Assembly (NCBI RefSeq): GCF_008107445.1
Contig: NZ_VSLD01000002.1
Coordinates: 372,001 to 436,000 of the forward strand
Reading direction: 5' to 3'
Length of the DNA: 64,000 bases
Origin: Arthrobacter echini
GTDB taxonomy: Bacteria; Actinomycetota; Actinomycetes; Actinomycetales; Micrococcaceae
Program-made: the position numbers and the translations under genes
Part shown: positions 9,817 to 34,562 of the stretch, piece by piece
Layout of the letters: each line of letters begins with the position of its first letter
Numbering within the stretch: position 1 is the first letter of the stretch
The notes under the pieces: model-generated
The model's input: only the letters and a program-made list of their open reading frames with translations
Database searches by the model: none
Told to the model about the DNA's origin: nothing

Positions 9817-9940
9817 GGCGCGCAGCTAAACCCGTACGGAACGCCCCTTGGGGTGACGCCCCTCACACTGGGAGACTGATGGGTATCACGGGCACGGCAC
9901 CCTTGCCGTCCTGCCCCGAGCACCAGTGTGGAGGCACTAC

Positions 9941-11263: not shown

Positions 11264-11273
11264 GGGGGCCCGC

Positions 11274-14635: not shown

Positions 14636-15918
14636 GTCTTGCAACGACCCGGCCCACCGACTCCGAGGACGCCGCCGCGGCTGCGCGCGCCTTCCTCGCC
14701 GATTTCCGCTCGATGAGCACGTTCGGAGCCACCATGGGTGGAGGGGTGGACCGCCAGGCCGGCACGGCGGCCGATGGGCAGACGCGGAACTGGTTCCGCG
14801 GCCTCGTGGAGGGCCACGGCTTCGAGGTCCGCTACGACGCCGTCGGCAATCAGTTCGCGCTGCTCGAACTCGTTCCCGGGGCGCCCTACGTGGCAATGGG
14901 CTCCCACCTCGATTCCCAGCCGCTGGGCGGGCGCTTCGACGGCGCCTACGGCGTGCTCGCGGCGGCACATGCGGCCATCCGCCTCCAGGGCACGCCGGCC
15001 ACCGCACTGCCACCGGTCTTCAACATCGCTGTCATCAACTGGTTCAACGAGGAGGGCTGCCGGTTCAAGCCCTCGCTGATGGGCAGTGCCGTGTTCACCG
15101 GCAAGCTCACCGCCGAGCAGGTCCTCGCCACCACCGACCCGCACGGCACCACGGTGCGTGAGGCGCTGGAGTCGATCGGCACCGTGGGCGACTTCAGCCT
15201 GGACGTCGCCGCCTACCTGGAGATCCACATCGAACAGGGGCGTTCGCTGGAGGACCACGGGCTCACCATCGGTCTGGTCGAATCCACCTGGGGTGCGAAC
15301 AAGTACGAGTTCGTCGTGCACGGCGAGCAGGCGCACACCGGCGCCACCGTCATCGCCGATCGCCACGATGCCCTGCTCGGCGCATCGCTGCTGGTGGCCG
15401 CGGCCCGCGACATCGCCGACGATTTCTCCACGGACGAGCACGCGGTCATCACCTCGTGTGGCGAGTTCACGGTGTTCCCGAACTCGCCCGTCGTGGTGGC
15501 CAGCCGCGTGGACCTGCTCGTCGATCTACGCAGCACCGACCCCGATGTGCTCTCCGCGGCCGATGCCGAACTCCACCGGCGGGTCGCGGCCATCGAGGAG
15601 CGCGCCGACGTCTCGATCGAGCGGGGCGCCGAGCACATCTGGGCATCGAAGGCCTATGACGCCTCCGGCATGGTGCTGGCCGCCGCAGCGGCAGAGGAAC
15701 TGGGCCTGACCCACGGGACCGTCCGCACCCTGGCGGGCCACGACTCGACGAACATGAAGGACATCGTCCCTACGATCATGCTCTTCGTCCCGAGCGTGGA
15801 GGGTATCTCCCACAACGAGAAGGAGCTCACCAGCGACGAGGACATGCTCGCCGGCGTCGACCTGTTCACCGATCTGCTCCGGCGCGTCGTCGCCGGCGAC
15901 TTCGTCCCAGGTGACTAG
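14632..15918 (+). CDS. M20-family Zn hydrolase: N-carbamoyl-L-amino acid hydrolase / allantoate amidohydrolase type
   Basis: Two-metal amidase (428 aa) of the hydantoinase/carbamoylase branch of family M20 (AmaB, allantoate amidohydrolase, beta-ureidopropionase). Visible residues: His and Asp in MGSHLDSQPLGGRFDGAYG, Glu-Glu in NWFNEEGCRF, His in YLEIHIEQGRSLE, the dimerisation-domain His in EQAHTGATV, and the late signature AGHDSTNM and GISHNEKE. All are intact. It is last in the four-gene operon and overlaps the preceding stop by 4 bases. It probably removes a carbamoyl or formyl group, releasing ammonia and CO2. Exact substrate cannot be told from sequence. A convergent hairpin follows. Confidence 0.92.
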   Translation: MSLATTRPTDSEDAAAAARAFLADFRSMSTFGATMGGGVDRQAGTAADGQTRNWFRGLVEGHGFEVRYDAVGNQFALLELVPGAPYVAMGSHLDSQPLGGRFDGAYGVLAAAHAAIRLQGTPATALPPVFNIAVINWFNEEGCRFKPSLMGSAVFTGKLTAEQVLATTDPHGTTVREALESIGTVGDFSLDVAAYLEIHIEQGRSLEDHGLTIGLVESTWGANKYEFVVHGEQAHTGATVIADRHDALLGASLLVAAARDIADDFSTDEHAVITSCGEFTVFPNSPVVVASRVDLLVDLRSTDPDVLSAADAELHRRVAAIEERADVSIERGAEHIWASKAYDASGMVLAAAAAEELGLTHGTVRTLAGHDSTNMKDIVPTIMLFVPSVEGISHNEKELTSDEDMLAGVDLFTDLLRRVVAGDFVPGD

Positions 15919-16251: not shown

Positions 16252-17115
16252 TCACTGACCCAGGATCACCCGGGCAGCGTCTGTGCCACGGTCCGTCACC
16301 GTGGTGGGCGCCTCGAGATGCACGGCACCCGACGGGATGATGCCGGCGCCACCGAAGCGCTCCATGACGCGCCACTGCACCGCGACGTCCTCCCCCGCAT
16401 GCTCGGCCGGCAATCGGTCCCAGAAGTCGAACCCGCCGACGTCGAGCAGAGCCTGCCGGTCGAACAGGACGCAGCCGCCCACCCAGGCCACGCGGTAGAG
16501 CCGCCACTCGCCCGGAGGGATGGCGAGCTCCAAGGCGGCATGGGCAAGATTCGCGGCGTTGTGCAGCGGCCAGCGCTCGAAGCCCTCGGTGCCCTCACGG
16601 ATCCGCTCCGGGGTCACCACGTCGTCGGGCCACAGACTCAGCGTGGTCCGTTCGTCGGGCCGGCTGTCGTCGAGATAGGACAGTCCCTGGACGGCGGAGC
16701 CGATGAAACCGCAGCCCGCCCGGCGCAGTGCCCGGCTCATCCGCTCCAGCGACCCCGGCTCCAGCCAGACGTCGTTGTCGAGGAAGAGGACGGACGGCGC
16801 ACTCGCCAGGGAGAGGAGGAAACTGCGCTGCTCGGCCAGTCCGCGACGGGGCAGATGCCTCTCGAGCTGCACGGTGCGGCCCTGGGCCCGCAGGACCCGG
16901 ACCATGGCCCGTACCGCCGACTGGTCGAAGGGCAGGTCATCGCCCTCGCTCTGGTCGCTCACGACGACGCGGAAGGGCACACCCTCCTGGGCCGCGAGCC
17001 CGGACAGGGTGACGGCCAGTTCCCCGGGCCGCCCGTAGGACGGGATCAGCACGTCGACGAGCGGTTCGCGCCCCGGCTCCCCGGAGGCCCACTGGCCGGA
17101 CGAGCGGGGCGTCAC
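16252..17115 (-). CDS. Glycosyltransferase family 2
   Basis: Inverting GT-A glycosyltransferase (287 aa). The nucleotide-binding start is DVLIPSYGRPGELAVTLSGL (from residue 20), and the metal-binding acidic motif is VLFLDNDVWLEPGSLE (near residue 105). A later WVGGCVLFDRQALLDVGGFD stretch is the typical acceptor-domain signature of family 2. There is no membrane segment, so it is probably cytosolic or peripheral. It overlaps the hldE-like gene at 17112-18683 by 4 bases (ATGA), which places it in the heptose locus, and it probably adds a sugar to the same glycan. Donor and acceptor are unknown. Confidence 0.9.
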   Translation of the reverse strand: MTPRSSGQWASGEPGREPLVDVLIPSYGRPGELAVTLSGLAAQEGVPFRVVVSDQSEGDDLPFDQSAVRAMVRVLRAQGRTVQLERHLPRRGLAEQRSFLLSLASAPSVLFLDNDVWLEPGSLERMSRALRRAGCGFIGSAVQGLSYLDDSRPDERTTLSLWPDDVVTPERIREGTEGFERWPLHNAANLAHAALELAIPPGEWRLYRVAWVGGCVLFDRQALLDVGGFDFWDRLPAEHAGEDVAVQWRVMERFGGAGIIPSGAVHLEAPTTVTDRGTDAARVILGQ

Positions 17116-18683
17116 TGGGCATCATCGATCGTGGGCAGAGGCACGGGCAGCGACCGGATCCGGCGCACGACCGCCGCGGTGGAGCGCTCGGGCACATAGT
17201 CGAGGATGCTGACCCGACCGCCATTGGCCTCCACACTGGGGGTCTCCTCCAGCATCTGCGCCGTGTAGTCGCCGCCCTTGGCGTAGACGTCCGGCTTCAG
17301 GAGGTCGATGAGCGGCACGAGGGTGTCGGTGCTGAACACGCTGACGTAGTCCACGCAGCTCAGGGACGCGATGATCCCGGCGCGGTCGGCGATGGGGTTG
17401 ATGGGCCGGTCCGGACCCTTGAGGCGGCGCACGCCGTCGTCGTCGTTCAGCGCCACCACGAGGACGTCGCCGAGCTGCTTCGCCTGATTGAGATAGCGCG
17501 TGTGCCCGCGGTGCAGCACGTCGAAGCAGCCGTTGGTGAGCACGATCCGCTTGCCGTCCGCGCGGTCCTCCTCGACCCTGCGCACCAGTTCCGCGGTGGT
17601 GAGCGCCGTGTCCGCGAACGACTGCAGATGCCGCGTGAGATCCGCCGTCGTGCACACGGAGGTGCCGGGCCGGTGCACGACGACGTCGGCGGCGGCCTGC
17701 GCCAGATCGAGGCTCGTGGACAGTGGCAGGCCGGCGGCGCGAGCAGCCGTGAGACTCGCGACGAACGTGTCCCCCGCGCCGGACGCCTGCTTCTCGTCGG
17801 CCGGTCTGGCCCAGGTCCGGTGGTCCTCGCCGTCCCGGCCGAGCAGCACGGTGCCGTCGCGATCGAGGGTCACGACGACGGCGCCCGCTCCGGTGGCCGC
17901 CAACAGCTCGTCGCGCCGCGCCGCCACGCGGCCTGCGCGGTCGGACCGGGGATCGAGGCGCAGGTCGAGGACGGCCGCCGCCTCCTGCGCGTTGGGCGTG
18001 ACGATGTCCGGCCGGAGCGCGGACCAGGCTGCGGTGTCGTGCGCGTCGACGACCACCAGCAGATCCGGGTCGCGCGTCGTCACGCCGCTGAGCGCCTCGC
18101 GGACCGTGGCATCGAGGAGTCCCGTGCCGTAGTCGCAGACGACGACGGCGTCGCAGCCCGCCACGGCTGCGGGGATCCGTTCCGCCAGCAGGTCGACGGC
18201 CGCCGTCGGAGGCTCCTCGTGCGTGTCGTCGATCCGGAGCATCACCTGGCCGGCACCGACGATCCGGTACTTGGTGGTCGTGGCGACCCGCTCGTCCTGC
18301 AGCAGGTCCGCGGTGCCCACCCCGGCCTCCTCGAGGATCGCCCGGAGCCGGTCCCCGGCATCGTCCGCCCCGATCACCCCGCACATGCGCACCCTCGCCC
18401 CGAGGGCAGCGAGATTCATGGCGGTGTTGGCGGCCCCGCCCGCGGCATAGTCGCGCCGCCGGATGTCGACCACGGGCGCCGGTGCCTCCCGGCACAGGCG
18501 CTCGATCGTGCCGCTCCACCAGCCGTCGAGGATGGCATCGCCGACCACGGTCACGAGCGGTGCCTCGGCGGCGATCGCCGCCGGGACCCAGGCGGCCGGA
18601 CCGCGCACCTCCGAAAGATCACCGGACAGGTCCCCGGGCGGCGTGCCCGCCGGTGAGCCCGTGCCGCCCTGCGCGCCTGACAT
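17112..18683 (-). CDS. hldE: Bifunctional heptose 7-phosphate kinase / heptose 1-phosphate adenylyltransferase (copy 1)
   Basis: Two-domain HldE (523 aa). Residues about 40-345 are a PfkB-type kinase with GDAILDGWWSG, the sugar-binding GGAANTAMN motif and the catalytic ASGAGDTF. Residues about 385-520 are a nucleotidyltransferase with NGCFDVLHRGHTRYL (HxGH) and KGGDYT. The kinase makes D-glycero-beta-D-manno-heptose 1,7-bisphosphate. After GmhB removes the 7-phosphate, the second domain makes ADP-heptose. Compared with the Escherichia coli enzyme it has about 35 extra N-terminal residues rich in Gly and Pro. It follows the aldehyde dehydrogenase gene with a one-base stop/start overlap (TGATG) and is coupled to the family-2 glycosyltransferase. 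The kinase pocket motifs look canonical, unlike copy 2. Confidence 0.92.
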   Translation of the reverse strand: MSGAQGGTGSPAGTPPGDLSGDLSEVRGPAAWVPAAIAAEAPLVTVVGDAILDGWWSGTIERLCREAPAPVVDIRRRDYAAGGAANTAMNLAALGARVRMCGVIGADDAGDRLRAILEEAGVGTADLLQDERVATTTKYRIVGAGQVMLRIDDTHEEPPTAAVDLLAERIPAAVAGCDAVVVCDYGTGLLDATVREALSGVTTRDPDLLVVVDAHDTAAWSALRPDIVTPNAQEAAAVLDLRLDPRSDRAGRVAARRDELLAATGAGAVVVTLDRDGTVLLGRDGEDHRTWARPADEKQASGAGDTFVASLTAARAAGLPLSTSLDLAQAAADVVVHRPGTSVCTTADLTRHLQSFADTALTTAELVRRVEEDRADGKRIVLTNGCFDVLHRGHTRYLNQAKQLGDVLVVALNDDDGVRRLKGPDRPINPIADRAGIIASLSCVDYVSVFSTDTLVPLIDLLKPDVYAKGGDYTAQMLEETPSVEANGGRVSILDYVPERSTAAVVRRIRSLPVPLPTIDDAQ

Positions 18684-20092
18684 CAGGCGCCCTGCTGCGG
18701 GGAACTGATGTGGACCACCTTCACGAGGGCGAACTCGTCGAGCAGCTCAGGTCCGTAGCCGAAGCCTGCGCCGCTGATCCCCCGCGGCTGTGCGGAGCCG
18801 CCGGGAGCGCCGCCGAACACGGCGTTCACCTTGACGGTGCCGACCGCGAGCGCGGCGATGGCCTGCTGGGCGTGGGCGATGCTTCCCGTCAGGACGGAGG
18901 CCGCAAGACCGTAGGGGCCGGCTGCGGCGAGTCGGAGTCCCTCCTCGAAGCTCTCGACGACGGTCACCGGGGCCACGGGGCCGAAGGTCTCCTGGCTCAT
19001 CACGGTCATGGCGTCGGTGCACCCCGTGAGGACGGTGGGCGGGTAGTGGGAGCCGGGGCCTGTCGGTGTGGCACCACCGGCGAGGCACTGCGCTCCCTGG
19101 TGGATGGCGTCGCTGACGTGCGCCTGGACGGCGTCGCGCATGCGGCCGTCGACGAGCGGCGGGAAGGTACCGCTGGCGCTGCGGGTCTGCGCCTCGCCGG
19201 CCAGGGCGGTGAGGAAGGGTTCGGCGATGTCCCTGTGCACGTAGATGCGCTCCACGGAGGTGCAGATCTGGCCGGCGTTGGCGAAGGCGCCGAGTGCCGC
19301 CTGCGCCGCGGCCCAGGCGGGGTCGACGTCGGCGTCGACGATGAGCGGATCGTTGCCGCCGTTCTCGCGGATCACGTGTGAACCGGTGACGGAGGCGGCG
19401 CGGGCGATACTGGCACCGGCAGCGCTCGAGCCCACGTGCGCGATGACGTCGGCCCCCGTCTGCTCGGTGAGCATGCGGCCCACGGCTGCAGCTCCGGTGA
19501 GGGTGGTCAGTACGCCGTCGGGGAAGGAGGACTGCAGGAGCCGCCCGAGGAGCTCACCCACGTGCGGGCAGCGTTCGCTGGGCTTGTGGATCACGGTGTT
19601 CCCCGTGACGAGGGCCGCTCCGATGAGCCCGACGGCAACGGCCACCGGGTCGTTCCACGGGGTCAGGAGGACGGCCACCCCGCGCGCCTCGGCGACGGTG
19701 TAGTCGGTGGCGGTGACTGCCCCGCGCAGGCTGAGCCCGCGGTGCACCGGGCCCAGCTCGGCGTACTGCTCGAGCGTGGAGATCGCCGCCTCGATCCCGC
19801 CGAGCGAGTCGCCGAGCGGCTTACCGGTCTCGCGGGTGTTCAGCTCGGCCAGTTCCCGCGCGCCCCCACGCAGTGCGTCCGCTGCACGGCGCAACGCGGC
19901 CCCTCGTTCGGCCGGAGGGGTGGCGGCCCAGGAGGGCTGCGCCGCGCGCGCCGAACCCAGAGCCGCAGTGACCTCGTCCTGCGTCGCGCAGCGAAGACTG
20001 CCGACCTCGCTGCCGTCTGCCGGGTTCCGGATGTCGATGGACTGCTCGTCCTGCTCGGCTCGTGGCGTGTGCACCTGGGCGTCGATGGACAT
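18683..20092 (-). CDS. Aldehyde dehydrogenase family protein
   Basis: NAD(P)-dependent aldehyde dehydrogenase (469 aa). The catalytic Glu is in VIRENGGNDPL (near residue 240) and the nucleophile Cys is in NAGQICTSVERIYVH (near residue 277). The Rossmann part has VLLTPWNDPVAVAVGLIGAAL and GNTVIHKPSERCP, and ETFGPVAPVTVV is near the C-terminus. ATG 20092 is chosen for its GAGGAG site. It is first in the three-gene unit with hldE copy 1 and the family-2 glycosyltransferase, and is divergent from a GT9 gene. An aldehyde dehydrogenase is not part of the known ADP-heptose route; it may act on the sugar, on a lipid aldehyde, or simply share the promoter. Confidence 0.9.
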   Translation of the reverse strand: MSIDAQVHTPRAEQDEQSIDIRNPADGSEVGSLRCATQDEVTAALGSARAAQPSWAATPPAERGAALRRAADALRGGARELAELNTRETGKPLGDSLGGIEAAISTLEQYAELGPVHRGLSLRGAVTATDYTVAEARGVAVLLTPWNDPVAVAVGLIGAALVTGNTVIHKPSERCPHVGELLGRLLQSSFPDGVLTTLTGAAAVGRMLTEQTGADVIAHVGSSAAGASIARAASVTGSHVIRENGGNDPLIVDADVDPAWAAAQAALGAFANAGQICTSVERIYVHRDIAEPFLTALAGEAQTRSASGTFPPLVDGRMRDAVQAHVSDAIHQGAQCLAGGATPTGPGSHYPPTVLTGCTDAMTVMSQETFGPVAPVTVVESFEEGLRLAAAGPYGLAASVLTGSIAHAQQAIAALAVGTVKVNAVFGGAPGGSAQPRGISGAGFGYGPELLDEFALVKVVHISSPQQGA

Positions 20093-20298
20093 TGTGCTCC
20101 TCGGGATTCGATCCGTCCTGCAGCGGCCGCGTCGCCCTGCACGTCTACTGGTCTCGTACCCAGCTTCCGCCCGTTCACACAGTCGTGCCCCCGATATCTC
20201 GGGGCGTCCCGGTGCCTCCCGCGCACCTAGCATGGGGGCGGGGGCTCTGCGTCCCCACACCGCTACCAGCACCAGCACCAGGAACGGGGACGCACGGC

Positions 20299-21453
20299 AT
20301 GCAGCACCCAGAGACCACGGCCGAGTTCGGCGGGCGCCAGGACACCGCGAGGGCCGTGGGCCCGCTGCTCGCCCCGTTCGAGGACGTCCACAGGATCGCG
20401 GTGCTGCGCGGCGGGGGGCTGGGGGATCTCATGTTCGCCCTTCCGGCCATCACCGCGCTCCACGCCCGCTACCCGGAGGCATCGATCACCCTGCTCGGGA
20501 TGCCCGCCCATGCGGCCCTGCTGGACGGCAGGCCCGGCCCCGTCTCGGAGGTGCTGGAGCTGCCGGTCCACGAGGGTGTGCGGCCCGGCGAGGCGGACCC
20601 CGCCGCCGTGGACCGGTTCTTCGCCGGGGTCCGTGGATCCTTCGATCTGGCGGTGCAGCTGCACGGGGGCGGGAGGAACTCCAATCCCTTCCTCCTACGC
20701 CTCGCCGCGCCCCACACCGTCGGTACGCGTACTCCTGATGCTGCGGCGCTGGAGCGGACCATTCCGTACGCCTACTACCAGCACGAGGTGTTCCGTGCCC
20801 TCGAGGTCGTGGGCCTGGCAGGCGCTGCGCCCGTCGATCTCGAGGCACGGCTGCAGCTCACACCGGGCGACGCCGAACGGGCGAGGCGGCTCGTGGGACC
20901 GGGGCCGGTGGTGGCGCTGCACCCGGGGGCCACGGATCCCAGGCGCCGCTGGCCGTCGTCGTCGTTCGCCGAGGTGGCCGTGCGTGCCGCGACCGACGGC
21001 TGCGAGGTGGTGGTGGTCGGTGATGCCTCGGATGTGCCGGCGGCCGAGGAGATCGTCCGGCGGGCCCTCGGGGCGGCACCGGCAGCATCGGTCCGCTCCC
21101 TGGCAGGCCGACTGGAGCTCGGCGAACTGCTGGGGGTGCTGGAGGCCAGCGCCGTCGTGGTCGGCAACGACAGCGGGCCCAGGCACCTGGCGCAGGCCCT
21201 GGGCACACCGACGGTGGGCGTCTTCTGGATCGGCAACATGATCAACGCCGGACCAGTGGGCCGCACACTGCACCGCGTGCACTTCTCCTGGGTGACGCAC
21301 TGTGCCACGTGCGGCGCCGATCTGCGCCAGGTGGGCTGGACGGCGGAGCGCTGCGAGCACGATGACCCGCTCGTCGCCTCCGTCCAGCCCGACGCCGTCT
21401 ACGCGGACGTGGCGGAACTCAGGGCCACGAGCCTTCTTCTGCGTGGGCGATGA
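20299..21453 (+). CDS. Glycosyltransferase family 9 (heptosyltransferase-like), copy 1
   Basis: GT-B glycosyltransferase (384 aa) of family 9, the family of the ADP-heptose:LPS heptosyltransferases WaaC/WaaF. The N-domain has RIAVLRGGGLGDLMFALPAI and LAVQLHGGGRNSNPFLLRL. The C-domain has VVALHPGATDPRRRWP and VVGNDSGPRHLAQALGTPTV, which are the donor-site signatures. A C-terminal cysteine group (CATCG...CEHD) resembles the Cys-rich loop of heptosyltransferases. The start is chosen because homology begins soon after it; the ribosome site (AGGAACGGGG) is only fair. It is divergent from the aldehyde dehydrogenase gene. Its 3' end overlaps the convergent SDR gene by 35 bases. Confidence 0.88.
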   Translation: MQHPETTAEFGGRQDTARAVGPLLAPFEDVHRIAVLRGGGLGDLMFALPAITALHARYPEASITLLGMPAHAALLDGRPGPVSEVLELPVHEGVRPGEADPAAVDRFFAGVRGSFDLAVQLHGGGRNSNPFLLRLAAPHTVGTRTPDAAALERTIPYAYYQHEVFRALEVVGLAGAAPVDLEARLQLTPGDAERARRLVGPGPVVALHPGATDPRRRWPSSSFAEVAVRAATDGCEVVVVGDASDVPAAEEIVRRALGAAPAASVRSLAGRLELGELLGVLEASAVVVGNDSGPRHLAQALGTPTVGVFWIGNMINAGPVGRTLHRVHFSWVTHCATCGADLRQVGWTAERCEHDDPLVASVQPDAVYADVAELRATSLLLRGR

Positions 21454-22132
21454 CCATCTCGCGGATCTCGCAGCTCTTCGGCTGCGAGAGGGCGAACAGG
21501 ATGGCCTCGGCGACGCGCTCCGGATCGTTGAGGCGCGAGTCGTCCTGCGGCTTGTACTGCTCGTCCCGATCGTCGAAGAACCTGGTCTTCATGCCGCCGG
21601 GGATGATGGTCGTCACGCCCATCTGACCGGCGGTCTCCGCCGCGAGGGCCTGCGAGAAACCCATGACCCCGAACTTGGAGGCGCAGTAGGCCGTCGCGTC
21701 GCCCACGGCCTTGATGCCGAGGGTCGAGGCGATCGTGATGACACGGCCGCGGGACTGCTTCAGGTACGGCAGCGCCGCACGCGCCGTCGAGGCGGTGCCC
21801 ATCAGATTCACCCCGATGACCTTCTCCCACTCATCGGCTGCAACGGTGTCCAGGGCTCCGCAGCGGTCTATCCCCGCCGCGGTGACCACGGCGTCGAGGC
21901 CGTCGAGCATCTCGGCCGCTGCGGTGACCGCCGCCTCGACCGCCCCGCGGTCGGCGACGTCCACCTCGAAGGCCTTCACGCCGCTGACCCGGCTGATGTC
22001 GCGGTCCAGCACGACGGCGGTCCCGCCGGCCGCGATGACGCCCTGGACGATCGCGGCGCCGAGGCCGGAGCCTCCGCCGGTCACCAGGACGCGCCCGGGG
22101 TTGAAGCTGGTGGCAGGGGTGTTCTCTGTCAT
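21419..22132 (-). CDS. Short-chain dehydrogenase/reductase (classical SDR)
   Basis: NAD(P)-dependent oxidoreductase (237 aa). The cofactor motif is TGGGSGLG near residue 18. The catalytic residues are in ITIASTLG (Ser) and AYCASKFG (Tyr-x3-Lys). Length and motifs are those of classical SDRs, not of the extended HldD epimerase, which is over 300 aa. The start has GAAGGGAA. It lies 55 bases after hldE copy 2 in the same direction and so may be the last gene of the heptose operon. A role in modifying the heptose or its carrier is possible but only inferred. It overlaps the GT9 gene on the other strand by 35 bases. Confidence 0.88.
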   Translation of the reverse strand: MTENTPATSFNPGRVLVTGGGSGLGAAIVQGVIAAGGTAVVLDRDISRVSGVKAFEVDVADRGAVEAAVTAAAEMLDGLDAVVTAAGIDRCGALDTVAADEWEKVIGVNLMGTASTARAALPYLKQSRGRVITIASTLGIKAVGDATAYCASKFGVMGFSQALAAETAGQMGVTTIIPGGMKTRFFDDRDEQYKPQDDSRLNDPERVAEAILFALSQPKSCEIREMVIAHAEEGSWP

Positions 22133-22187
22133 GGTGTTCCCTTCGTTGAGTGTGTCCGGACGGACCGGACGAGGATCTGCGGCCGGC

Positions 22188-23555
22188 TCAGCCCACGCGG
22201 GCGAGGGCAGCTGCGAGTTTCGTGGTGGAGCGTGCGGGGATATAGGGCACGGTGACGGTCCTGCCACCCCAGCTGCTCATCAGCGCTGCCTCCGGAAGGT
22301 CCTGCGCAGCGTAGTCGCCGCCCTTGACCCAGATGTCCGGCTGCAGCCGGGCGATCACGCTCTCGGGCGTCGACTCGGCGAACAGGAGCACGGCGTCGAC
22401 GCACTCGAGTGCGGTCAGCAGCTCGGCGCGGTCGTCCTGTTTGATGATGGGCCGGTGCTCCCCCTTCAGCCCGCGCACGGAGTCGTCGGAGTTCAGGCAG
22501 ACGATGAGGCAGTCGCCGAGCTGCCGTGCCGCGGCGAGCGTCCGGGCGTGCCCGGCGTGGAGGAGATCGAAGCACCCGCCGGTCGCGACCACGGTGCCGC
22601 CCGTCGCACGCGTCCGTCGTACCACTTCCAGGGCGTCGAGACCCTCCACCGGCAGCTGCAGCGGCGCGGCTCCCTGCCCGCTGCCGAGCGCGGCGAGACC
22701 GCCGAGGCCGAGGAAGAAGGCTGCAGCCTCGGTTGCCTGCCGTGCCGCGGCATCGACCGCGGCCCCCTCGGCGAGCCCGACGGCGAGCGCGACGGCGAAA
22801 CGGTCACCGGCGCCGCACGGATCCGCTGCGTCCACGCGCGGTGCGGGAATGACCTGCGGCAGCAGTCCCGGTGCGGCCACGAGGGCGCCGTGGTCGCCCA
22901 TCGTGACGATCACGGCTCCGCTCCCCCAGGTCTCCAGCAGGACTTCGGCCGCTGCCGCAGCGGCCGAGGTCCCGGAGCCCTGAACGCCCGCGAACCGCAG
23001 GGCCTCCCTGAGATTGGGCGTCACGGCGGCGACGCCCGGCACGGGCCGGGCGCCGAGCGGGTGGGGGTCCCAGATCACAGGGGTGGATCCGGCAAGCGCC
23101 GCCAGGCGGGCCCTCAGCTCGGCATTGGCCAGGACACCGCGACCGTAGTCCGCCGCGATGATCGCGTCCGCGCCGGTCAGCGCTGCGAGCATCCCGTCGG
23201 TACACTCCGGCGCCGGGGGCGGTGCGCAGCCCTCGTCGAAGCGCACCACCGCCTGGCCCGAGGCACGGATGCGCGTCTTCACGGGTGTCGGGGCTCCCGA
23301 GGGGCCCGCGACGACGTCGATGCCATCGAGCTCGGCTCGCAGGAGCCCCGCGGCGTCGTCGTCCCCGAGGACCGTCACGAGGACGGCCTCGTGCCCCTCG
23401 CTCTGGATCATGCGCGCCACGAGGCCCGCGCCGCCCGGTCGACGCCGTACCGCGTCGACCTCGACCACGGGCACGGGCGCGTCCGGCGAGAGCCGCCCGG
23501 CCCCTCCGGAGAGATCCGTGTCGAGCAGCACGTCCCCCACCACCACGATCCTCAT
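22188..23555 (-). CDS. Bifunctional HldE-like kinase/adenylyltransferase (copy 2, altered kinase pocket)
   Basis: Two-domain HldE homologue (455 aa). The PfkB kinase domain spans 1-310, with GDVLLDTDLSGGAGRLSPDA and the catalytic DPCGAGDRF. The nucleotidyltransferase spans about 325-450, with TGGCFDLLHAGHARTL (HxGH), HRPIIKQDDRAELL and VKGGDYAAQDLP. The kinase motif that reads GGAANxAMN in E. coli HldE and in copy 1 reads GGAGLVARM here, so two Asn of the sugar pocket are replaced. The kinase may therefore use another sugar phosphate or be weak, while the transferase domain looks intact. It starts 4 bases inside the end of gmhA (ATGA) with a GGGAGGAG site, so it is coupled to the heptose genes. 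Confidence 0.88.
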   Translation of the reverse strand: MRIVVVGDVLLDTDLSGGAGRLSPDAPVPVVEVDAVRRRPGGAGLVARMIQSEGHEAVLVTVLGDDDAAGLLRAELDGIDVVAGPSGAPTPVKTRIRASGQAVVRFDEGCAPPPAPECTDGMLAALTGADAIIAADYGRGVLANAELRARLAALAGSTPVIWDPHPLGARPVPGVAAVTPNLREALRFAGVQGSGTSAAAAAAEVLLETWGSGAVIVTMGDHGALVAAPGLLPQVIPAPRVDAADPCGAGDRFAVALAVGLAEGAAVDAAARQATEAAAFFLGLGGLAALGSGQGAAPLQLPVEGLDALEVVRRTRATGGTVVATGGCFDLLHAGHARTLAAARQLGDCLIVCLNSDDSVRGLKGEHRPIIKQDDRAELLTALECVDAVLLFAESTPESVIARLQPDIWVKGGDYAAQDLPEAALMSSWGGRTVTVPYIPARSTTKLAAALARVG

Positions 23556-24235
23556 CGCTGCTCCTCCCGGCGGCGGAGCACCGCCGCGTCGAAGGCGCGG
23601 CAGAGCGCGTGCAGGGCGATCAGGTGCCCCTCCTGGGCGCTGGCCGAGACGGCATCGATCGCCACCGAGGAGTCCACGCACTCGGTGAGCGGATTGGGAC
23701 CCGCACCCGTCAGCGCCCACGTGGTGATACCCGCTGCCCGGGCCGTTTCCGCCGCCCGCAGCAGATTGGGGCTCCTGCCACTGGTGCTGAAGAGCATGAG
23801 GATGTCCCCCTCGCGGCCGTGTGCGCGCACCTGGCGGGCGAACAGCTGCTCGAAGCCGTAGTCGTTGGCGATCGCGGTGACCGCGGAGCTCTCCGCGTGC
23901 AGGGAGATGGCCGAGAACGGCTCCCGCTCGCCGTCGAAGCGGCCCACCAGCTCGGCCGTCAGGTGCTGCGCCTCCGCCGCGGAGCCTCCGTTGCCGGCGG
24001 CGAGCAGTCGCTGACCTGCCATGAGGCGGGTGGCCAGCTCGAGTCCCCACCCAGCAAGCGTCCCGGCGTTCCGGGACAGCGAATCCAGGGCCGGAGTCAG
24101 CGCCCGCAGATGCTCCAGGACGAGGCGCTCCGAGTCCTCGAGCGAGGCGTCGAAGGTCTCGACGGGGTCCGGCAGGCCGTTTCCCGTGCGTGCCTCGATG
24201 TCCGACATTTCCGTGGTCGACAGTTCCGTGGTCAC
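23552..24235 (-). CDS. gmhA: Sedoheptulose 7-phosphate isomerase
   Basis: SIS-domain isomerase (227 aa) converting sedoheptulose 7-phosphate to D-glycero-D-manno-heptose 7-phosphate, the first committed step of heptose synthesis. GmhA marks are [20 protein letters not shown] with the metal His and Glu, [14 protein letters not shown], the phosphate-binding [12 protein letters not shown], and the late [13 protein letters not shown] with further ligands. The GTG at 24235 is chosen: it overlaps the previous stop by 4 bases (GTGA) and has GGGAGG upstream. An ATG 27 bases further in is possible. The N-terminus is about 30 residues longer than in E. coli. It stands between a GT4 gene and hldE copy 2. 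Confidence 0.93.
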
Positions 24236-25521
24236 AGTGCCCGGCCTCCCGTGCTCTCGAGTGGGCGCGCGGTACGTTGCTGCGCCGTGCTCGGACGGGG
24301 CGCCGTCGTGCCGAGTGCGGCAAGATACGCCGTCTCCGTGTCGGCGGCGATCCTGTCCCAGGAGTAGCGCGCCAGCACCCGCTGGTAGCCGTTCTCGCCG
24401 AGCTCGCGGGCCCTGGCCGGATCGGCGAGGAGGGCGGCGATCGCCGCGGCGATGGCGGGAGCATCCTGCGGCGGTGCGTGGAGTCCGGTGGTGCCGTCGA
24501 CCACGGTGTCCACCAGGCCTCCCACCGCCGCGGCGACAACGGGTACGCCGCACGCCATGGCCTCGAGCGGGACGATCCCGAACGGTTCGTACCAGGGCGC
24601 GCACACGACGGCGTCGGCACTCCGGAGCACCGCCGGCAGCTTCACCCGGGACACCTGGCCGCGCAGGACCACGCGGTCGGCGACATCGAGGTCCGCGGCC
24701 AGGGTCATCAGCCGCTGTGCCTCGGGATCGTCCTGCAGGCCGGCCGAATTACCCGCGCCGCCCACGATCACGAGCTCGACGTCGTTCCGTCCGAGCTCGG
24801 TGAGTGCGCGCAGCGCGCGGATGACCAGATCCATGCCCTTGCGCGGCACGAGCCGGCCCACGCTGACGATCCGGTGCGTCCGGTTCCGCTCCTCCACGGG
24901 GCCGAGGGGGGTGAAGAGGTCCAGGTCGACGCCGCAGGGGGCGATGGAGACCCTTCGGCCCGGCACTCCCATCGCCGCGAGCTCGAACACCTCGTCCGAG
25001 CAGGTGGCCACCACGTGGTCCGCGCTGCGGCCCACCATCGCCTCGAGGGAGATCCGCTCCGGCGGACTGGTGTCCTCGACGCCCTGATGACGCCGCTTGA
25101 CCGTCCCGAGCGCGTGGAAGGTCTGAACCACCCGCACCGATCGGCCTGCGTGTCCGGCGCGGCGGGCGGCATCGAGCGCCGCGAGGCCGGACATCCAGAA
25201 GTGGCCGTGGACGATATCGGGCACATCCTGGCCCCAGTCGGCGACGATGCCGTCGGCGAGCGCCCCCATGTACGGCAGCAGGAGGTCCTTGGCGACCGCA
25301 CGGGCCGGGCCGGCATCGATATGGACCACCTCCAGCCCCGGATCCGTGCGGACCCGGGCGGGCAGGTCCGGATCGTCGCGGCGGGTGTAGACGGTGACGT
25401 CGTGTCCCCGGCGCGCGAGTGCCAGGGACAGCTCGGCGACATGGACGTTCTGGCCACCGGCGTCGACGCCTCCGAGGGCCGCGAGCGGGCTCGCGTGTTC
25501 GGACACCATGGATATCCTCAC
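24232..25521 (-). CDS. Glycosyltransferase family 4 (glycosyltransferase group 1)
   Basis: Retaining GT-B glycosyltransferase (429 aa). The acceptor-domain start has a [19 protein letters not shown] stretch like that of MshA and sucrose-phosphate-synthase-type enzymes. Also seen are [30 protein letters not shown] and the donor-site E-x7-E in [18 protein letters not shown]. No membrane segment is visible. It is embedded in the heptose operon, overlapping both neighbours by 4 bases. It therefore probably elongates the same glycan; a role in mycothiol synthesis (MshA) was considered, but the context argues against it. Confidence 0.9.
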
Positions 25522-26519
25522 GGTGCTCTCCTTTCAGTGACGAGCAGTCCTCGCAGCCGGGACGCCTCCTCGTCGAGGACCCCGTCCCAGTCGGACAGGA
25601 ACCGCGCGAGTCCGTACCGGGAGAGGGCTGCCTCTCGTGCCACGAGGCCGCGCGTGCGTGCCTCGTCCGGATCCTCGATCAGTCGGGCCGCAGCACGCAG
25701 GAGGTCCGCGACGCTGGTCGAGACGGCGCCTGCGCCTGGGGGTACGGCCCGGGCGGCCTCGGTGGTGGCGAGCACCAGGACCGGGAGCCCCACGTGCATG
25801 GCCTCCAGGAGGGACAGTCCCAGCGAGGTCCAGCGCAGCGGATGGACATAGGCCCGCGAGCGTCCCAGCCTCGCGTGGAGCTGCTTCGTCGGGAGGTCCC
25901 CGCCGATGCGCAGCTCGCCCGGTCCGAGATCCAGGGCGTCGGCGAGGGTGTCGGTGCCCATACCGAAGACCTCGAGGGGTGCGACGCCGGCGAAGCGCGG
26001 CAACAGGTCGGTCCCTGTGATCCGGCCACGCCGGACCGGCTCGTTGATCACGAGCGCGAGCTGCTGCAGGTCCCCGGAGTAGAGATAGCCGGGATCCACG
26101 ATGCCGTGCTCGATCACGATGGTCCGGGCACGGCCGCTGTCCCAGAAGAGGTCATTGAAGTGCGTGACGTGGACCACGGGGATGTCCGTCCGGTCCGCCA
26201 GCGGGTGCACGGTGCCCACGATGTCGCGGCGCGGCGTGTTGTGCTCCACGAACACCGCCGGCAGGTCCGTCCCGGGCGTACGCCCGAGCAGCCGCTCGCA
26301 CTCCGCGATCTCCTCCACGCGCTGGAGGACCACGACGTCGATGTCGGCGTCCGCGAGGTCCCCGGGAGCGACCTCGATGACGCTCTCCGGCCAGTCGCGA
26401 CCGGCCCGTCCGAGTCCCCACGGACCCCCGTCGGGCCCGGTGGGAAGCACATAGGTGTGCCGACCCCTGACGAAGGCGTCGGTCCACCCTCCGTGGACGT
26501 GCCAGAGCAGGATCCTCAT
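25518..26519 (-). CDS. Glycosyltransferase, GT-B type, of the heptose operon
   Basis: A 333-aa protein starting [19 protein letters not shown]. It has [12 protein letters not shown] in the first half and the donor-side signatures [21 protein letters not shown] and [15 protein letters not shown] in the second. The spacing and the late [10 protein letters not shown] motif match family 4-like glycosyltransferases, although the classical E-x7-E is altered (TSLGLSLLE has only the last Glu). It overlaps the genes on both sides by 4 bases and is part of the gmhB-to-hldE transcript. Family membership is fairly sure; donor and acceptor are unknown. The missing first Glu could mean a changed donor. Confidence 0.8.
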
Positions 26520-27628
26520 TGCTTTCCCCTCGTCTGTCTGCGGCCGTCGCTGCGGCCGATACTGCGGCGCGAGCCGAGTGATGAGATGCCGGAACCGAGC
26601 CGGAGGACGGCGTCGACCACGTCCTCGGGCGAGACGTTCGACAGGCACGGGTGTCCCTGCACGGGGCAGATCCGGGCCCGCGTGAGCGCGCAGGCGGCGT
26701 CCTGGTCCCCGAGCAGTTCCACGGGGACCTTGTACGGCGCCCAGCGGACGGCCGGGACCACGGGCGAGAACAGGCACACCACGGGGGTGCCCACGGCAGC
26801 GGCCAGATGCGCCGGCCCGGTGTTGCCCGTGATGACCACCGTGGCGCCCGCCAGGACGGTTCCCAGGGTGTCCAGATCCGTCCTGCCGCCGAGATCCCGG
26901 CCCTCCGGACCCGCCACGGTCGAGGTAAGGCCGGTCTCGCCGGGGCCCCCCGTGACCACCACGCGGAAGCCCGCGGCGGTGAGGAGTTCCACGGCGGCGG
27001 CGTGGTGCAGGGGCGGCCAGGCGCGGGCGGGAACGGCGGCGCCGGGGTGCACCACCACGTAGGGACCCTCGCCCACGAGGTCCCGCAGCTCCGAGGGGTC
27101 CGGCCGCGGGGTGACCTGCAGTCTCCCGTCGTCGCCGTCCGGCAGGGCATACCCCGCGGCCTCGGCAATTCCCAGCGCCCGCTCCGCCTCCGGCTGGTCC
27201 TCGGGGAAGTCCTCCCCGGGCCTGATGCGCACGTCCAGGAGGGATCCGGCGTAGTCCACGGAGGCGCCGGAGATACGCCGGACTCCCGAGAGGCGCAGCA
27301 GGAGGGCGAGCGGCAGCGGCGACTGGTGGAAGGAGGTCAGGATCACGGCCTCGTCCACTTCGAGCGCCTCCACCGAGTCCTGCAGTTCGGCGATCAACTC
27401 CGGCGTCGCGTCGGGCGCGGGGTCCACGATCCAGGGAGCGGACCAGGTCACGACGTCGGCCACACCGGGCAGCAGTCGGCCAGCGGCGGCGCCCTGCGGT
27501 CCGCACAGGAGGACGACGTCGTTGGGCGAGTCCCCGTGGTCCCCCGCCGCGATGGCCCGCACCGCCGGTCCGGCGAGCAACACGTCACCGGCGCTGTCCA
27601 GGCGTGCGACCAGCACGCGGCGCCTCAT
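26516..27628 (-). CDS. Glycosyltransferase family 9 (heptosyltransferase-like), copy 2
   Basis: GT9 enzyme (370 aa), WaaC/WaaF-like. It begins RVLVARLDSAGDVLLAGPAV (nucleotide-sugar/acceptor loop). It has VVVHPGAAVPARAWPP and ITGNTGPAHLAAAVGTPVV, where the His and Gly-rich loop bind the ADP-heptose phosphates, and then a Cys-rich stretch CALTRARICPVQGHPCL that closely matches the C..C..GH..C pattern of true heptosyltransferases. This is the best heptosyltransferase candidate of the three GT9 copies. It overlaps gmhB by 4 bases at its start and the next glycosyltransferase by 4 bases at its stop. The acceptor is unknown since no LPS is expected. Confidence 0.9.
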   Translation of the reverse strand: MRRRVLVARLDSAGDVLLAGPAVRAIAAGDHGDSPNDVVLLCGPQGAAAGRLLPGVADVVTWSAPWIVDPAPDATPELIAELQDSVEALEVDEAVILTSFHQSPLPLALLLRLSGVRRISGASVDYAGSLLDVRIRPGEDFPEDQPEAERALGIAEAAGYALPDGDDGRLQVTPRPDPSELRDLVGEGPYVVVHPGAAVPARAWPPLHHAAAVELLTAAGFRVVVTGGPGETGLTSTVAGPEGRDLGGRTDLDTLGTVLAGATVVITGNTGPAHLAAAVGTPVVCLFSPVVPAVRWAPYKVPVELLGDQDAACALTRARICPVQGHPCLSNVSPEDVVDAVLRLGSGISSLGSRRSIGRSDGRRQTRGKQ

Positions 27629-28173
27629 GAGGTCCCCTCCCACAGCAGAGCCACGGCCTCGGCGAGGCTCCCCGCGACGGCGGGGGCCGCACGGATCTCC
27701 TCCTCGAGGGTCACCACGGTCGGGACGAGCACTGCTCGCGCCCCGGCGGCGGCGGCGGCTCCCATATCGGCCCCGATGTCGCCGATGACGGCGACCTCGG
27801 ACGGGGCCAGACCCAGTCGCTCGCTCGCGGACAGGATCATGCCCGGCTCGGGTTTGCGGCACCGGCAGCCGTCCTCCGGTCCGTGGGGGCAGACCTCCCA
27901 GAGGTCGAACGGGCCGAGCAGCTCCTCGACCTCCGCATTGACGGCGTCGACCTGCTCCCGGGTGAGGAGGCCGCGGGCGATCCCGGACTGGTTGGTGACG
28001 ACGCCGAGGCGCACGCCGTCCGCGCGCAACCGGTCGAGGACGTTCCGCGCACCGGGCATGGGCTCCACCAGCGAGGGATCCCCGTTGTACGGGACGTCCC
28101 GGACGATGGTCCCGTCCCGGTCGAACAGGACGGCACGCGGGGCGGTCCGCGGAAGTCCGGGTGAGAAGTCCAT
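27625..28173 (-). CDS. gmhB: D,D-heptose 1,7-bisphosphate 7-phosphatase
   Basis: HAD-family phosphatase (182 aa) that removes the 7-phosphate from heptose 1,7-bisphosphate. Motif I is VLFDRDGTIV, with nucleophile and acid Asp. Motif II is VVTNQSGIARG. The GmhB zinc loop CPHGPEDGCRCRKP carries C-x-H and C-x-C ligands, and motif III/IV is KPEPG...VIGDIGADM. It matches GmhB rather than histidinol phosphatase (HisB-N) because of the operon. First gene of a seven-gene minus-strand unit (gmhB, GT9, GT, GT4, gmhA, hldE-like, SDR) and divergent from GT9 copy 3. No good Shine-Dalgarno is seen, so a leaderless start is likely. Confidence 0.93.
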   Translation of the reverse strand: MDFSPGLPRTAPRAVLFDRDGTIVRDVPYNGDPSLVEPMPGARNVLDRLRADGVRLGVVTNQSGIARGLLTREQVDAVNAEVEELLGPFDLWEVCPHGPEDGCRCRKPEPGMILSASERLGLAPSEVAVIGDIGADMGAAAAAGARAVLVPTVVTLEEEIRAAPAVAGSLAEAVALLWEGTS

Positions 28174-28298
28174 ACAGGCTTAGTGCCCGGGAAGGAGCAG
28201 TACTAAACACTTCGCGGTGAACTTCTTCTGACCACCACCGTTCCCCCGGCGCGAAGACCCCGCAGCCACCCACCCGGACCTCTGGCAGGATGAACCGC

Positions 28299-29330
28299 AT
28301 GACCTCCGAGGGCACCGCCGCGACCACCCGCGACCGTCCGTCGTCCGCACCGGCCAGCGGGTCCGCACGCGACCGTCCGGTTCCGCCCTCGACTCCTGCG
28401 CCCGACGGCCGCCCGGAGCTCCTCGCCCTCCGTGCCCTGAAGCTCGGTGATCTCCTCGTGGCCGTCCCGGCCCTCCGTGGCCTGCGCCGCGCCTTCCCGG
28501 AACACCGGATCCTGTACGCGGCCCAGGAGTGGCTGCGACCCGTCGTCGGCCTGATCGACGCGATCGACGACCTCCTGCCCACCCACGGGCTGGACGCCCC
28601 CCTCCCGGTGGAGCACGGGCGGATCGACATCGCAGTGAATCTGCACGGCAACGGCGCCCAGAGTCGGGGACGGCTCGGCGAGATCGGTGCGCACCGGCGC
28701 CTTGGCCACCGCTCGCCCGGCTGGGACGGTCCGGTCTGGCGCCCCGGCGTCCACGAGCGGGAGCGCTGGGCGTCCCTGGTGGCCTGGCACGGTGCGCCGG
28801 CGGACCCGCTGGACTGCCGACTCGGGCTGCCCGCCGTGACGAGCCCGGTGCCCGGGGCCGTCGTCGTGCATGTGGGTGCCGCGTACGGCAGCAGGCTGTG
28901 GCCCGTCGAACGGTTCGCGGCAGTCGCCCAGCGTCTTGCCGCCTCCGGACACCGCGTTGTGTTCACCGGCAGCGACGGCGAGCGCGCACGGGCCCTCGCC
29001 GTCGCCGATGCCGCCGGGCTGCCCGAGGAGACCGTCGCTGCCGGGAAGCTGCCACTCGACCGGTTCGCCGCGCTCATCGCGGGCGCGGAGCTGGTGGTCT
29101 CGGCCGATACGGGTGCCGCTCATCTCGCCTCGGCCTACGCCCGGCCGTCGGTCGTGCTGTTCGGGCCGGCGCCCGTGACCGAGTGGGGCCCCCCACCGGG
29201 CCCCCATACCGTCCTGACCGATGCCTCGGTACGCCTCGGCGACACCTTCTCCCCGACGCCCGATCCCGCCCTGCTGGCTGTCACGGTGGACCAGGTACTG
29301 GCTGCAGCCGCGGCCCACGGCATCGCGTAG
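28299..29330 (+). CDS. Glycosyltransferase family 9 (heptosyltransferase-like), copy 3
   Basis: GT9 enzyme (343 aa). After about 40 low-complexity residues rich in Ser, Pro and Arg come LLALRALKLGDLLVAVPAL, DIAVNLHGNGAQSRGRL, VVVHVGAAYGSRLWPVERFA and VSADTGAAHLASAYARPSVV, the family signatures. It lacks the C-terminal Cys loop of copy 2. The ATG at 28299 has AGGA 8 bases upstream; an in-frame ATG at 28290 is an alternative. It diverges from gmhB across about 125 bases, so the two transcripts may share control. Confidence 0.88.
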   Translation: MTSEGTAATTRDRPSSAPASGSARDRPVPPSTPAPDGRPELLALRALKLGDLLVAVPALRGLRRAFPEHRILYAAQEWLRPVVGLIDAIDDLLPTHGLDAPLPVEHGRIDIAVNLHGNGAQSRGRLGEIGAHRRLGHRSPGWDGPVWRPGVHERERWASLVAWHGAPADPLDCRLGLPAVTSPVPGAVVVHVGAAYGSRLWPVERFAAVAQRLAASGHRVVFTGSDGERARALAVADAAGLPEETVAAGKLPLDRFAALIAGAELVVSADTGAAHLASAYARPSVVLFGPAPVTEWGPPPGPHTVLTDASVRLGDTFSPTPDPALLAVTVDQVLAAAAAHGIA

Positions 29331-29357: not shown

Positions 29358-30233
29358 TCACCCCGTCCGGCCCGGCGCCCGGGACGACCCTGCGGCCGGA
29401 TGGGGCTGGGCGGGCGAGCTGAGCAGGGTCTTCTGCAGTCTGACGAGGATCCGTGAGAGGGCCCGGGAAACCTGCATCTGCGACATCCCCAGCGCGTCCG
29501 CGATCACCTGCTGCGTCTGCTCCATGAAATACCGGCGATAGAGCAGTTCCTTCTCGCTCGGACCGAGGTCGTTCACGGCACCCCGCAGCGAGATCATGTC
29601 GTCACTGCGATCCGTACCGCTCGCTTCGACGGCCAGCGTCTCAGCCCAGCCCAGACCCTCGGACTCGGCGTCGAGCGATTCCGGACGGAGGCTGGAGTGG
29701 GACGCCTGCGCCTCGAGGATCCTGGCCTCCGCATGACCCAGTTCCAGGCCCAGTTCCCGGGTCGTCGCTTCACGACCGAATCGCTGTGCCAGTGCCGGTG
29801 CGGCCCTGGCTATCTCGGTGCGCAGGTCCTGGATCTCCCGCGGCGGACGGATCACCCAGCACGAGTCCCGCAGGTACCGCTTGATCTCGCCGTTGATCGT
29901 CGGAACGGCGAAGGACGCGAACGGGACACCGCGCGCAGGATCGAAGCGCTGCACGGCCTTGATGAGCCCCAGGTACGCCACCTGGCGGATGTCGGAGGCC
30001 TCCGGGCCCGACGACGCGAAGGACCGCGCCACGGACTCGGCAATGTCCATATGACGCAGGGCGATGTCGTCCTGCAACGCTGCTGTCAGCCGCGCTCCCG
30101 GCCGAGCGGCTGTCCCCGGGGTGACCCCGTGAGAGCCGGAGCAGTCAGCGGCGGCGCTGCCGGATATCTCGCCCCGCACCTGGGGTACGGCGGAACTCTG
30201 CGTGCGACGCTGCGTCGCCGGAAGAACACTCAC
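29358..30233 (-). CDS. RNA polymerase sigma factor, SigB/SigF (group 3) family
   Basis: Alternative sigma factor (about 291 aa). Region 2 reads IRQVAYLGLIKAVQRFDPARG and VPFASFAVPTINGEIKRYLRD, followed by WVIRPPREIQDL. Region 3 follows. Region 4.2 is the helix-turn-helix QQVIADALGMSQMQVSRALS. It resembles general-stress and sporulation-type sigma factors of actinobacteria. No anti-sigma (RsbW) or anti-anti-sigma gene is adjacent, which is unusual. Start is uncertain: GTG 30233 is chosen, giving about 60 residues before region 2, but GGGGAG is too close for a normal ribosome site. An upstream ATG at 30347 is possible. Confidence 0.85.
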   Translation of the reverse strand: MSVLPATQRRTQSSAVPQVRGEISGSAAADCSGSHGVTPGTAARPGARLTAALQDDIALRHMDIAESVARSFASSGPEASDIRQVAYLGLIKAVQRFDPARGVPFASFAVPTINGEIKRYLRDSCWVIRPPREIQDLRTEIARAAPALAQRFGREATTRELGLELGHAEARILEAQASHSSLRPESLDAESEGLGWAETLAVEASGTDRSDDMISLRGAVNDLGPSEKELLYRRYFMEQTQQVIADALGMSQMQVSRALSRILVRLQKTLLSSPAQPHPAAGSSRAPGRTG

Positions 30234-30374
30234 GCTCCCCAACAAAACAGCAGACTGATCGATCCGCAACAGTGAACATGGACGGAGCCGCTTTCCTCCA
30301 CGGGCTTCCCTTCGGGCTGCGAGCACGCTATGGCAACGGACTGCCACCCGTCATCCCGGTCCCCGGACCGGGTC

Positions 30375-32656: not shown

Positions 32657-32747
32657 ATGTCCGGCGAGCGACGCGCCGTCGGGGAACGGACAGGACGATC
32701 ACCTACACTTGGGGCTTCATCCACCCGGCCCATCGGAGATCCCGCCT

Positions 32748-34463: not shown

Positions 34464-34562
34464 CCCCGGCGTGGCGGCCCTGACGACCACGGAAGGAATT
34501 TATAGATCGTCACCAGCAGACGTTAGGCTGTGGCTGCTAGCACCACGTGACTGGAGACTCCG

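Follow-up and report, generated by a model that had tools for sequence, protein, structure and literature searches.

The locus and its gene content

What would an actinobacterium without a match to LpxC, the marker of lipopolysaccharide (LPS) synthesis, do with a set of genes for a predicted synthesis of ADP-heptose? The question is raised by a locus at positions 16252 to 29330 of a 64,000-nucleotide stretch of the Arthrobacter echini genome (assembly GCF_008107445.1, contig NZ_VSLD01000002.1, positions 372,001 to 436,000; hereafter the window), in which an initial annotation had named gmhA, hldE, gmhB, a second hldE, three GT9 genes, a GT2, a GT4 and another GT-B gene. All of these are present by Pfam, NCBIfam and PDB matches, and a sigma factor, a promoter-like site and an aldehyde dehydrogenase (ALDH) are features beyond that annotation. 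The reading that we favour, with slightly better than even confidence, is that of an ADP-heptose pathway, old in the actinobacteria and here subject to stress-type control, that would lead to a cytosolic heptose-bearing oligosaccharide; the observations behind it are of gene content, motifs, synteny, promoter conservation and sigma linkage. Domains of the window genes were assigned by Pfam and NCBIfam profile searches, and the features are as follows.

16252..17115, minus strand: GT2 glycosyltransferase, terminal gene of the ALDH-hldE1-GT2 run (PF00535, 40.6 bits)
17112..18683, minus strand: hldE1, predicted heptose-7-phosphate kinase/heptose-1-phosphate nucleotidyltransferase, second paralogue (HldE model NF008454, 355.9 bits, cut-off 521)
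18683..20092, minus strand: ALDH, aldehyde dehydrogenase (PF00171, 362.6 bits; GQICT and ENGG motifs)
20299..21453, plus strand: GT9a, divergent from ALDH (PF01075, 101.7 bits; best PDB match WaaF 1psw; GD and NDSG..H motifs)
21419..22132, minus strand: classical SDR, terminal gene of the core run (PF00106, 130 bits; YxxxK motif)
22188..23555, minus strand: hldE2, predicted core heptose-7-phosphate kinase/nucleotidyltransferase (NF008454, 280.3 bits, cut-off 521)
23552..24235, minus strand: gmhA, predicted sedoheptulose-7-phosphate isomerase, GTG start (PDB phosphoheptose isomerases, E 3.4e-35; AQHLTAE and QEGH motifs)
24232..25521, minus strand: GT4, sucrose-phosphate-synthase/MshA-like (PDB 6kih, 213.9 bits; EPFGxxxLEA motif)
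25518..26519, minus strand: GTB, GT-B-fold glycosyltransferase (AlphaFold2 model, best fold match 7qsg; conserved columns)
26516..27628, minus strand: GT9b, the core GT9 (PF01075, 76.3 bits; found by the GT9 search of the organism's own genome)
27625..28173, minus strand: gmhB, predicted heptose-1,7-bisphosphate 7-phosphatase, leading gene of the core run (NF006506, 120.4 bits, cut-off 178; PDB 4pnh)
28184..28208, minus strand: SigB/F-type promoter-like site GTTTAG-N14-GGGCA, lying 10 bases upstream of gmhB
28290..29330, plus strand: GT9c, divergent from gmhB (PF01075, 80.7 bits; matches 3tov and WaaF)
29358..30347, minus strand: SigB/SigF/SigG-family sigma factor, convergent with GT9c (TIGR02980, 194.8 bits, curated cut-off 234.35)

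The core run gmhB-GT9b-GTB-GT4-gmhA-hldE2-SDR (28173 to 21419) had been described as mostly joined by 4-base overlaps, and these occur at five of its six junctions, the sole one without an overlap being hldE2/SDR, where a 55-base gap separates the genes. The second run, ALDH-hldE1-GT2, has overlaps of one base and, between hldE1 and GT2, of four. Start codons were inferred, being chosen to fit the domains and overlaps, as longer raw frames exist of 662 amino acids (25518-27506), 810 amino acids (22188-24620) and, for ALDH, 531 amino acids; the ALDH open frame runs on to 20278, and an ATG start was selected. Two of the genes combine PfkB and CTP_transf_like domains and have HldE (NF008454) as their best NCBIfam match. 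The sigma-factor gene (29358-30347, minus strand) lies just beyond the end of the interval originally reported.

Predicted synthesis of ADP-D,D-heptose

The enzyme types that lead from sedoheptulose 7-phosphate to ADP-heptose are all encoded in this one genome. GmhA would convert sedoheptulose 7-phosphate to D-glycero-D-manno-heptose 7-phosphate, the HldE kinase domain together with GmhB would then give heptose 1-phosphate, and the HldE nucleotidyltransferase domain would form ADP-D,D-heptose and perhaps CDP- or UDP-heptose as well. The catalytic motifs, read by the roles assigned to them, are intact in GmhA, GmhB and HldE: the GmhA residues align with those of solved phosphoheptose isomerases, and heptose bisphosphate phosphatases are the structures nearest to the gmhB product (PDB 4pnh, E 2.8e-21), which has the C-x-H...C-x-C site. 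The kinase half of HldE has its best PDB match in 4e84, a heptose 7-phosphate kinase, and the transferase half in 5x9q, deposited as a putative cytidylyltransferase, which we take to be HldC. GAGD and HxGH motifs are present in hldE1 and hldE2, and together with K93, R95, R105 and D107 they are invariant across 28 aligned rows covering both paralogues.

A search of the genome for LpxC (PF03331) gave no match, the same search being positive in four of the 14 controls. Because HldD was not detected above its cut-off in the genome (best 87.7 bits against 274.6), the sugar is predicted to remain in the D,D form. With the motifs of GmhA, GmhB and HldE intact and LpxC absent, the predicted synthesis of ADP-D,D-heptose outside LPS is well supported.

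Several scores weigh against so specific an assignment, as HldE1 and HldE2 (355.9 and 280.3 against 521 bits) and GmhB (120.4 against 178) fall short of the NCBIfam equivalog cut-offs. The TIGR02199 nucleotidyltransferase model (cut-off 181.5) gave 179.9 and 176.9, below the cut-off, in the NCBIfam scan, and just reached it in the genome search (183.2 and 181.5). Because HldE and GmhB fall below these curated cut-offs, their substrates are putative. The HldE, GmhA and GT9 homologues might instead have been recruited for another phosphorylated sugar, as the roughly 35% identity to E. coli HldE, the equivalog scores and an Asn in GT9b (see below) would allow, but all of the activity types, motifs included, are grouped together, the GmhA residues match those of phosphoheptose isomerases and the HldE halves find 4e84 and 5x9q first. 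We regard a non-heptose substrate as very unlikely.

The two hldE paralogues are only 36% identical to each other and each about 35% identical to E. coli HldE; they are therefore old, and a recent duplication is rejected. They differ at the STTR5 position, which is Arg in 14 of 15 hldE2 rows; among 13 hldE1 rows it is Arg in five, His in six and Gln in one, the motif being absent from the remaining one. The (F/L)XXGRSTT motif itself is matched only in part, hldE2 rows having mostly Tyr at position 1 and mostly Ala at position 4.

Glycosyltransferases of the cluster

A profile search for GT9 (PF01075) found matches at three places in the 3.16-Mb genome, all of them inside the heptose cluster, and the nearest solved structures of the three genes are WaaC, WaaF or 3tov. 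GT9a and GT9c carry both GT9 motifs, the N-terminal GD and D(T/S)G..H. GT9b matches WaaF 1psw (5.8e-18) and WaaC (1.3e-15), and all 16 of its aligned rows carry Asn at a position that is Asp in WaaC, WaaF, GT9a and GT9c, which counts against the pathway as we read it. The Asn may indicate another donor. Of the initial proposal of ADP-heptose synthesis in an actinobacterium without LPS, the enzyme set from sedoheptulose 7-phosphate to ADP-heptose stands, encoded in one tight run in a genome without an LpxC match, and the label 'heptosyltransferase' becomes uncertain for GT9b.

By sequence, the nearest structure to GT4 is 6kih (213.9 bits), the sucrose-phosphate synthase Tll1590, followed by 3c4q (157.8 bits), presumably MshA; against the NCBIfam MshA model GT4 scores 232.3 bits, the cut-off being 462.5. 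The AlphaFold2 model of GTB (mean predicted local distance difference test score, pLDDT, 87) has its closest fold matches among GT4-type enzymes, with the methylmannose polysaccharide mannosyltransferase 7qsg first (probability 1.00, 17% identity), and the protein lacks the first Glu of EX7E, the usual GT4 motif. Its best relative in named genomes is that of Arthrobacter sp. SX1312 (86%), among the matches listed, from which records of the organism's own genome may have been left out; on this match the host was taken to be an Arthrobacter-like member of the Micrococcaceae. The GT9, GT4 and GT-B enzymes would add heptose and another sugar to a small acceptor in the cytosol, so that an oligosaccharide with heptose, either free or bound to a lipid, would result, and the core SDR, with ALDH where present, may modify the sugar or the aglycone.

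Conservation of gene order

The best 80 of 584 GTB matches were taken as named loci, of which 65 are at least 20.5 kb long; the 15 shorter ones were excluded from counts of order and presence. Since these loci were selected via GTB, its presence in them is by choice, but the gene order is not. The exact core order gmhB-GT9b-GTB-GT4-gmhA-hldE2-SDR is found in 61 of the 65 long loci, and SDR is matched in all 65. The four exceptions comprise a split hldE2 match (L122), a missing gmhB match (L139), a GT9b place labelled GT9a (L152) and a rearrangement (L154). Best-hit labels for the other genes were assigned in the 65 loci to GT9c in 58, GT9a in 46, hldE1 in 46, the sigma factor in 42, ALDH in 39 and GT2 in 16, counts that genes at the far ends may escape, the flanks being 10 kb.

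Twenty regions of family genomes were fetched by their HldE matches, 17 with two HldE and three with one, numbers that reflect choice and not frequency. Both hldE genes adjoin other cluster genes in the 17, and the three have only hldE2, with most of the core. Beyond the family, 346 genomes were drawn from the phylum, with a GTB match in 48 at E 1e-10 and in 35 at 1e-60, and 10 of the 18 other-family regions fetched from this draw have the exact core order. One of the others is cut by a contig end (L185), one is without a gmhA match (L199), in one GT9c precedes SDR (L195), and in five (L189, L194, L197, L200 and L201) the core is rearranged, partial or divergent; in some other lineages ALDH is separated from the core.

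Because order and orientation recur across genera, the arrangement is far beyond chance, and the conservation among relatives that the initial annotation had put forward for comparison is borne out by 61 of 65 long loci and 10 of 18 other-family regions. By these counts the seven-gene core is old as a syntenic block in the phylum, the second hldE (hldE1), ALDH, GT9a and GT2 being additions of particular lineages. Such persistence bears on whether the product is instead a small heptosylated metabolite or a natural product of the kind that septacidin represents in Streptomyces. Tailoring-type enzymes are present in SDR and ALDH, and septacidin is among the few non-LPS uses of NDP-heptose given in two commentaries (PMC11461863, PMC11573728), but the order is kept across several families of the phylum, as is unusual for specialised-metabolite clusters, and the core is without aglycone genes. 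We consider a natural product unlikely.

A probable SigB-type promoter and a linked sigma factor

In the Arthrobacter-type lineages a SigB/F-type sigma factor would start the operon from GTTTAG-N14-GGGNA ahead of gmhB, and the adjacent sigma gene is its likely driver. A first pattern, built on the SigB consensus, matched 59 of 77 sequences of roughly 260 bases taken from upstream of gmhB, against 3.9% of 2000 random stretches. The pattern was then changed by allowing C in the -10 element and fixing GTTT, and the site in the window matches only after this widening. The widened motif stands ahead of gmhB in 63 of the 77 named loci, where dinucleotide shuffles (20 rounds) gave a mean of 0.8 and a maximum of 2; ahead of GT9c, hldE1, SDR, hldE2, gmhA, GT4 and the sigma gene it has 0 or 1 match each, ahead of GT9a 14 in 48 and ahead of ALDH 7 in 47. 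The divergent ALDH/GT9a intergenic stretch of the window (20093-20298) has no match to the first pattern. The motif resembles the B. subtilis SigB consensus GTTTAA-N12-14-GGG(A/T)A(A/T) given in PMC8346170, where G1-3 and A5 of the -10 element are described as almost invariant in S. coelicolor.

The sigma factor itself is the best of three TIGR02980 matches in the genome (194.8 bits). Among 197 family genomes, GTB (E 1e-40) is found in 56, the sigma factor (E 1e-20) in 55 and both in 47, and for 41 of the 47 with both, the top sigma match falls within 15 kb. The 64 long loci with gmhB divide into 40 with promoter and sigma, 11 with the promoter only, two with sigma only and 11 with neither. 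The genomes with GTB only include G060, G069 and G161, in whose fetched loci (L051-L053) there is one hldE gene and the promoter motif is absent.

Other observations weigh against stress control. The window's own -10 element (GGGCA) was missed by the first pattern, its C departing from the published consensus, and the sigma factor scores below the curated cut-off of its family (194.8 against 234.35). The widened motif is missing from 14 of the 77 named loci (three Amnibacterium, five Curtobacterium and six others), is found, for the family regions (20 in all), in 13 of 19, a figure that includes one region of insufficient length, and, for the regions from other families, in just one of the 15 that could be tested. 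GTB is present without the sigma factor in nine family genomes and the sigma factor without GTB in eight, and, the relatives not being independent samples, Fisher values overstate the association. The pattern is not enriched in the organism's own genome, with seven matches against six for a reversed control, and a large SigB regulon read from these matches is likewise unsupported. Because the promoter is conserved and the sigma gene linked, we nevertheless infer stress control of the cluster, as a supported inference from sequence. A fuller proposal joins this to the paralogues: the cluster-linked sigma factor would turn on a cytosolic heptose glycan that serves as a product of stress, and two old HldE enzymes, hldE2 promiscuous for nucleoside triphosphates and hldE1 less so, would feed two activated heptoses into the core and the added branch. 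We offer it tentatively and consider it more doubtful than probable.

Nature and location of the product

The 12 cluster proteins belong to soluble-enzyme families, none of them to a transporter, flippase or membrane-protein family. No PF01943 flippase match was found in the genome by a search positive in 13 of 14 controls, ABC and other exporter families being outside that search. Because of the soluble families and the lack of a PF01943 match, we tentatively favour cytosolic synthesis of a heptose-bearing oligosaccharide, either free or bound to a lipid, with a slight preference for a soluble product. It counts against this location that the sole membrane check is a crude hydropathy scan, in which 19-residue peaks range from 1.05 to 2.04 and seven of the 12 proteins exceed 1.6 (ALDH, SDR, GT4, GTB, GT9b, GT9c and hldE2). 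We take the peaks above 1.6 as buried core segments; that of GTB spans one helix and one strand of the predicted model.

The initial annotation had named a cell-wall polymer, a glycolipid or a glycoprotein as possible acceptors of the heptose. The main rival to our reading is an envelope glycan with heptose as a component (a capsule-like polymer, a cell-wall glycopolymer or a glycolipid), made by this pathway and exported by general machinery encoded elsewhere. Several glycosyltransferases per operon and lineage-variable accessory genes are as in surface-glycan loci, and the GT9 enzymes of LPS synthesis use membrane acceptors. Set against this are the 12 genes without an exporter, flippase, polymerase or membrane-protein family, the lack of a genome match to PF01943 (the one flippase family searched, as said above) and the position outside the core of the neighbouring membrane proteins of relatives (BrkB-like and MFS). 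An envelope glycan is a distinct possibility that we consider less likely than not.

A conserved exporter near the core was sought by scanning ten open reading frames (ORFs) from eight of 60 listed ORF clusters, and none of these ORFs lies in the core. The ORFs scanned include BrkB-like proteins, one MFS protein, epimerases, three without a Pfam match and, in Micromonospora, a topoisomerase IB and an FAD oxidoreductase. The BrkB-like membrane protein, of which two members were scanned (L163:1012-2436, minus strand; L117:2110-3255, minus strand), forms an ORF cluster in 20 of the 80 named loci, at a median of about 8 kb from GTB. An epimerase-family (PF01370) ORF cluster, exemplified by L108:5328-6374 (minus strand) and L150:6792-7814 (minus strand), occurs in 27 of the 80 named loci, beside the sigma gene in L108 and elsewhere in others. 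It was considered as HldD, but of two members that were scanned, NCBIfam identifies neither as HldD. In the window itself, a catabolic-looking run beside the cluster (9926-15918, plus strand) encodes an MFS transporter, a thiamine-pyrophosphate enzyme, an amidohydrolase and an M20 peptidase, and two long ORFs without a Pfam match (32703-34490 and 34500-35483, both minus strand) may not be genes.

Significance and comparison with known systems

NDP-heptose enzymes outside LPS bacteria are already in print; the sigma factor beside the cluster and the SigB-type promoter before gmhB are new here. No paper describing the cluster was found by title or abstract, in a literature search outside which most subscription journals lay. 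A Streptomyces counterpart may lie at SCO6184-6190. A look-up of the terms heptose, SCO618, SCO619 and rfaE found none of them in two S. coelicolor papers (PMC13011467, PMC11472566). A single salt-induced 'ADP-heptose:LPS heptosyltransferase' gene of Frankia appears in PMC5563000 and is not used here as support.

According to the commentary that the authors of the 2024 work wrote, few uses of manno-heptose are known, namely cell-wall components (LPS, capsules), protein heptosylation and natural products such as septacidin, and conserved genes adjoining heptose genes may hint at function. The seven-gene block is fixed in several actinobacterial families, and its promoter and sigma factor hint at the conditions under which the product would be made. 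If our reading holds, the role of heptose in bacteria without LPS becomes testable, and if the cluster-linked sigma factor does control a stress glycan, NDP-heptose would have a physiological role in Gram-positive bacteria. The remark in the initial annotation that ADP-heptose triggers ALPK1 agrees with both commentaries; if our reading is right, soil and plant-associated actinobacteria could be makers of ALPK1 agonists.

The ADP-heptose branch of the LPS inner core (GmhA, HldE, GmhB, HldD, WaaC/WaaF) shares GmhA, a bifunctional HldE, GmhB and GT9 with the cluster, the motifs of the first three being kept. Unlike in that branch, the genome is without LpxC and without HldD above the cut-off, there are two old HldE paralogues, and the heptose genes form a single syntenic block that also includes GT4, GT-B and SDR genes. 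Among the glycosyltransferases, GT4 is nearest by sequence to sucrose-phosphate synthase and MshA-type enzymes (6kih, then 3c4q), and GTB is nearest by fold to the mannosyltransferase 7qsg, without the first EX7E Glu. General stress regulons of SigB/SigF have in common with the cluster a SigB/F/G-family sigma factor and a promoter-like motif GTTTAG-N14-GGGNA, but the sigma factor here is linked to one biosynthetic cluster. A further parallel is with the NDP-heptose enzymes described across kingdoms (Tang et al. 2024, as conveyed in PMC11461863 and PMC11573728), where the pathway likewise occurs outside LPS makers. At the STTR5 position, reported to be linked to ADP/CDP/UDP promiscuity, hldE2 has Arg in 14 of 15 rows, the motif otherwise matching only in part. 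To these commentaries, which leave physiological roles open, the present analysis adds the conserved gene neighbourhood and its linkage to a sigma factor.

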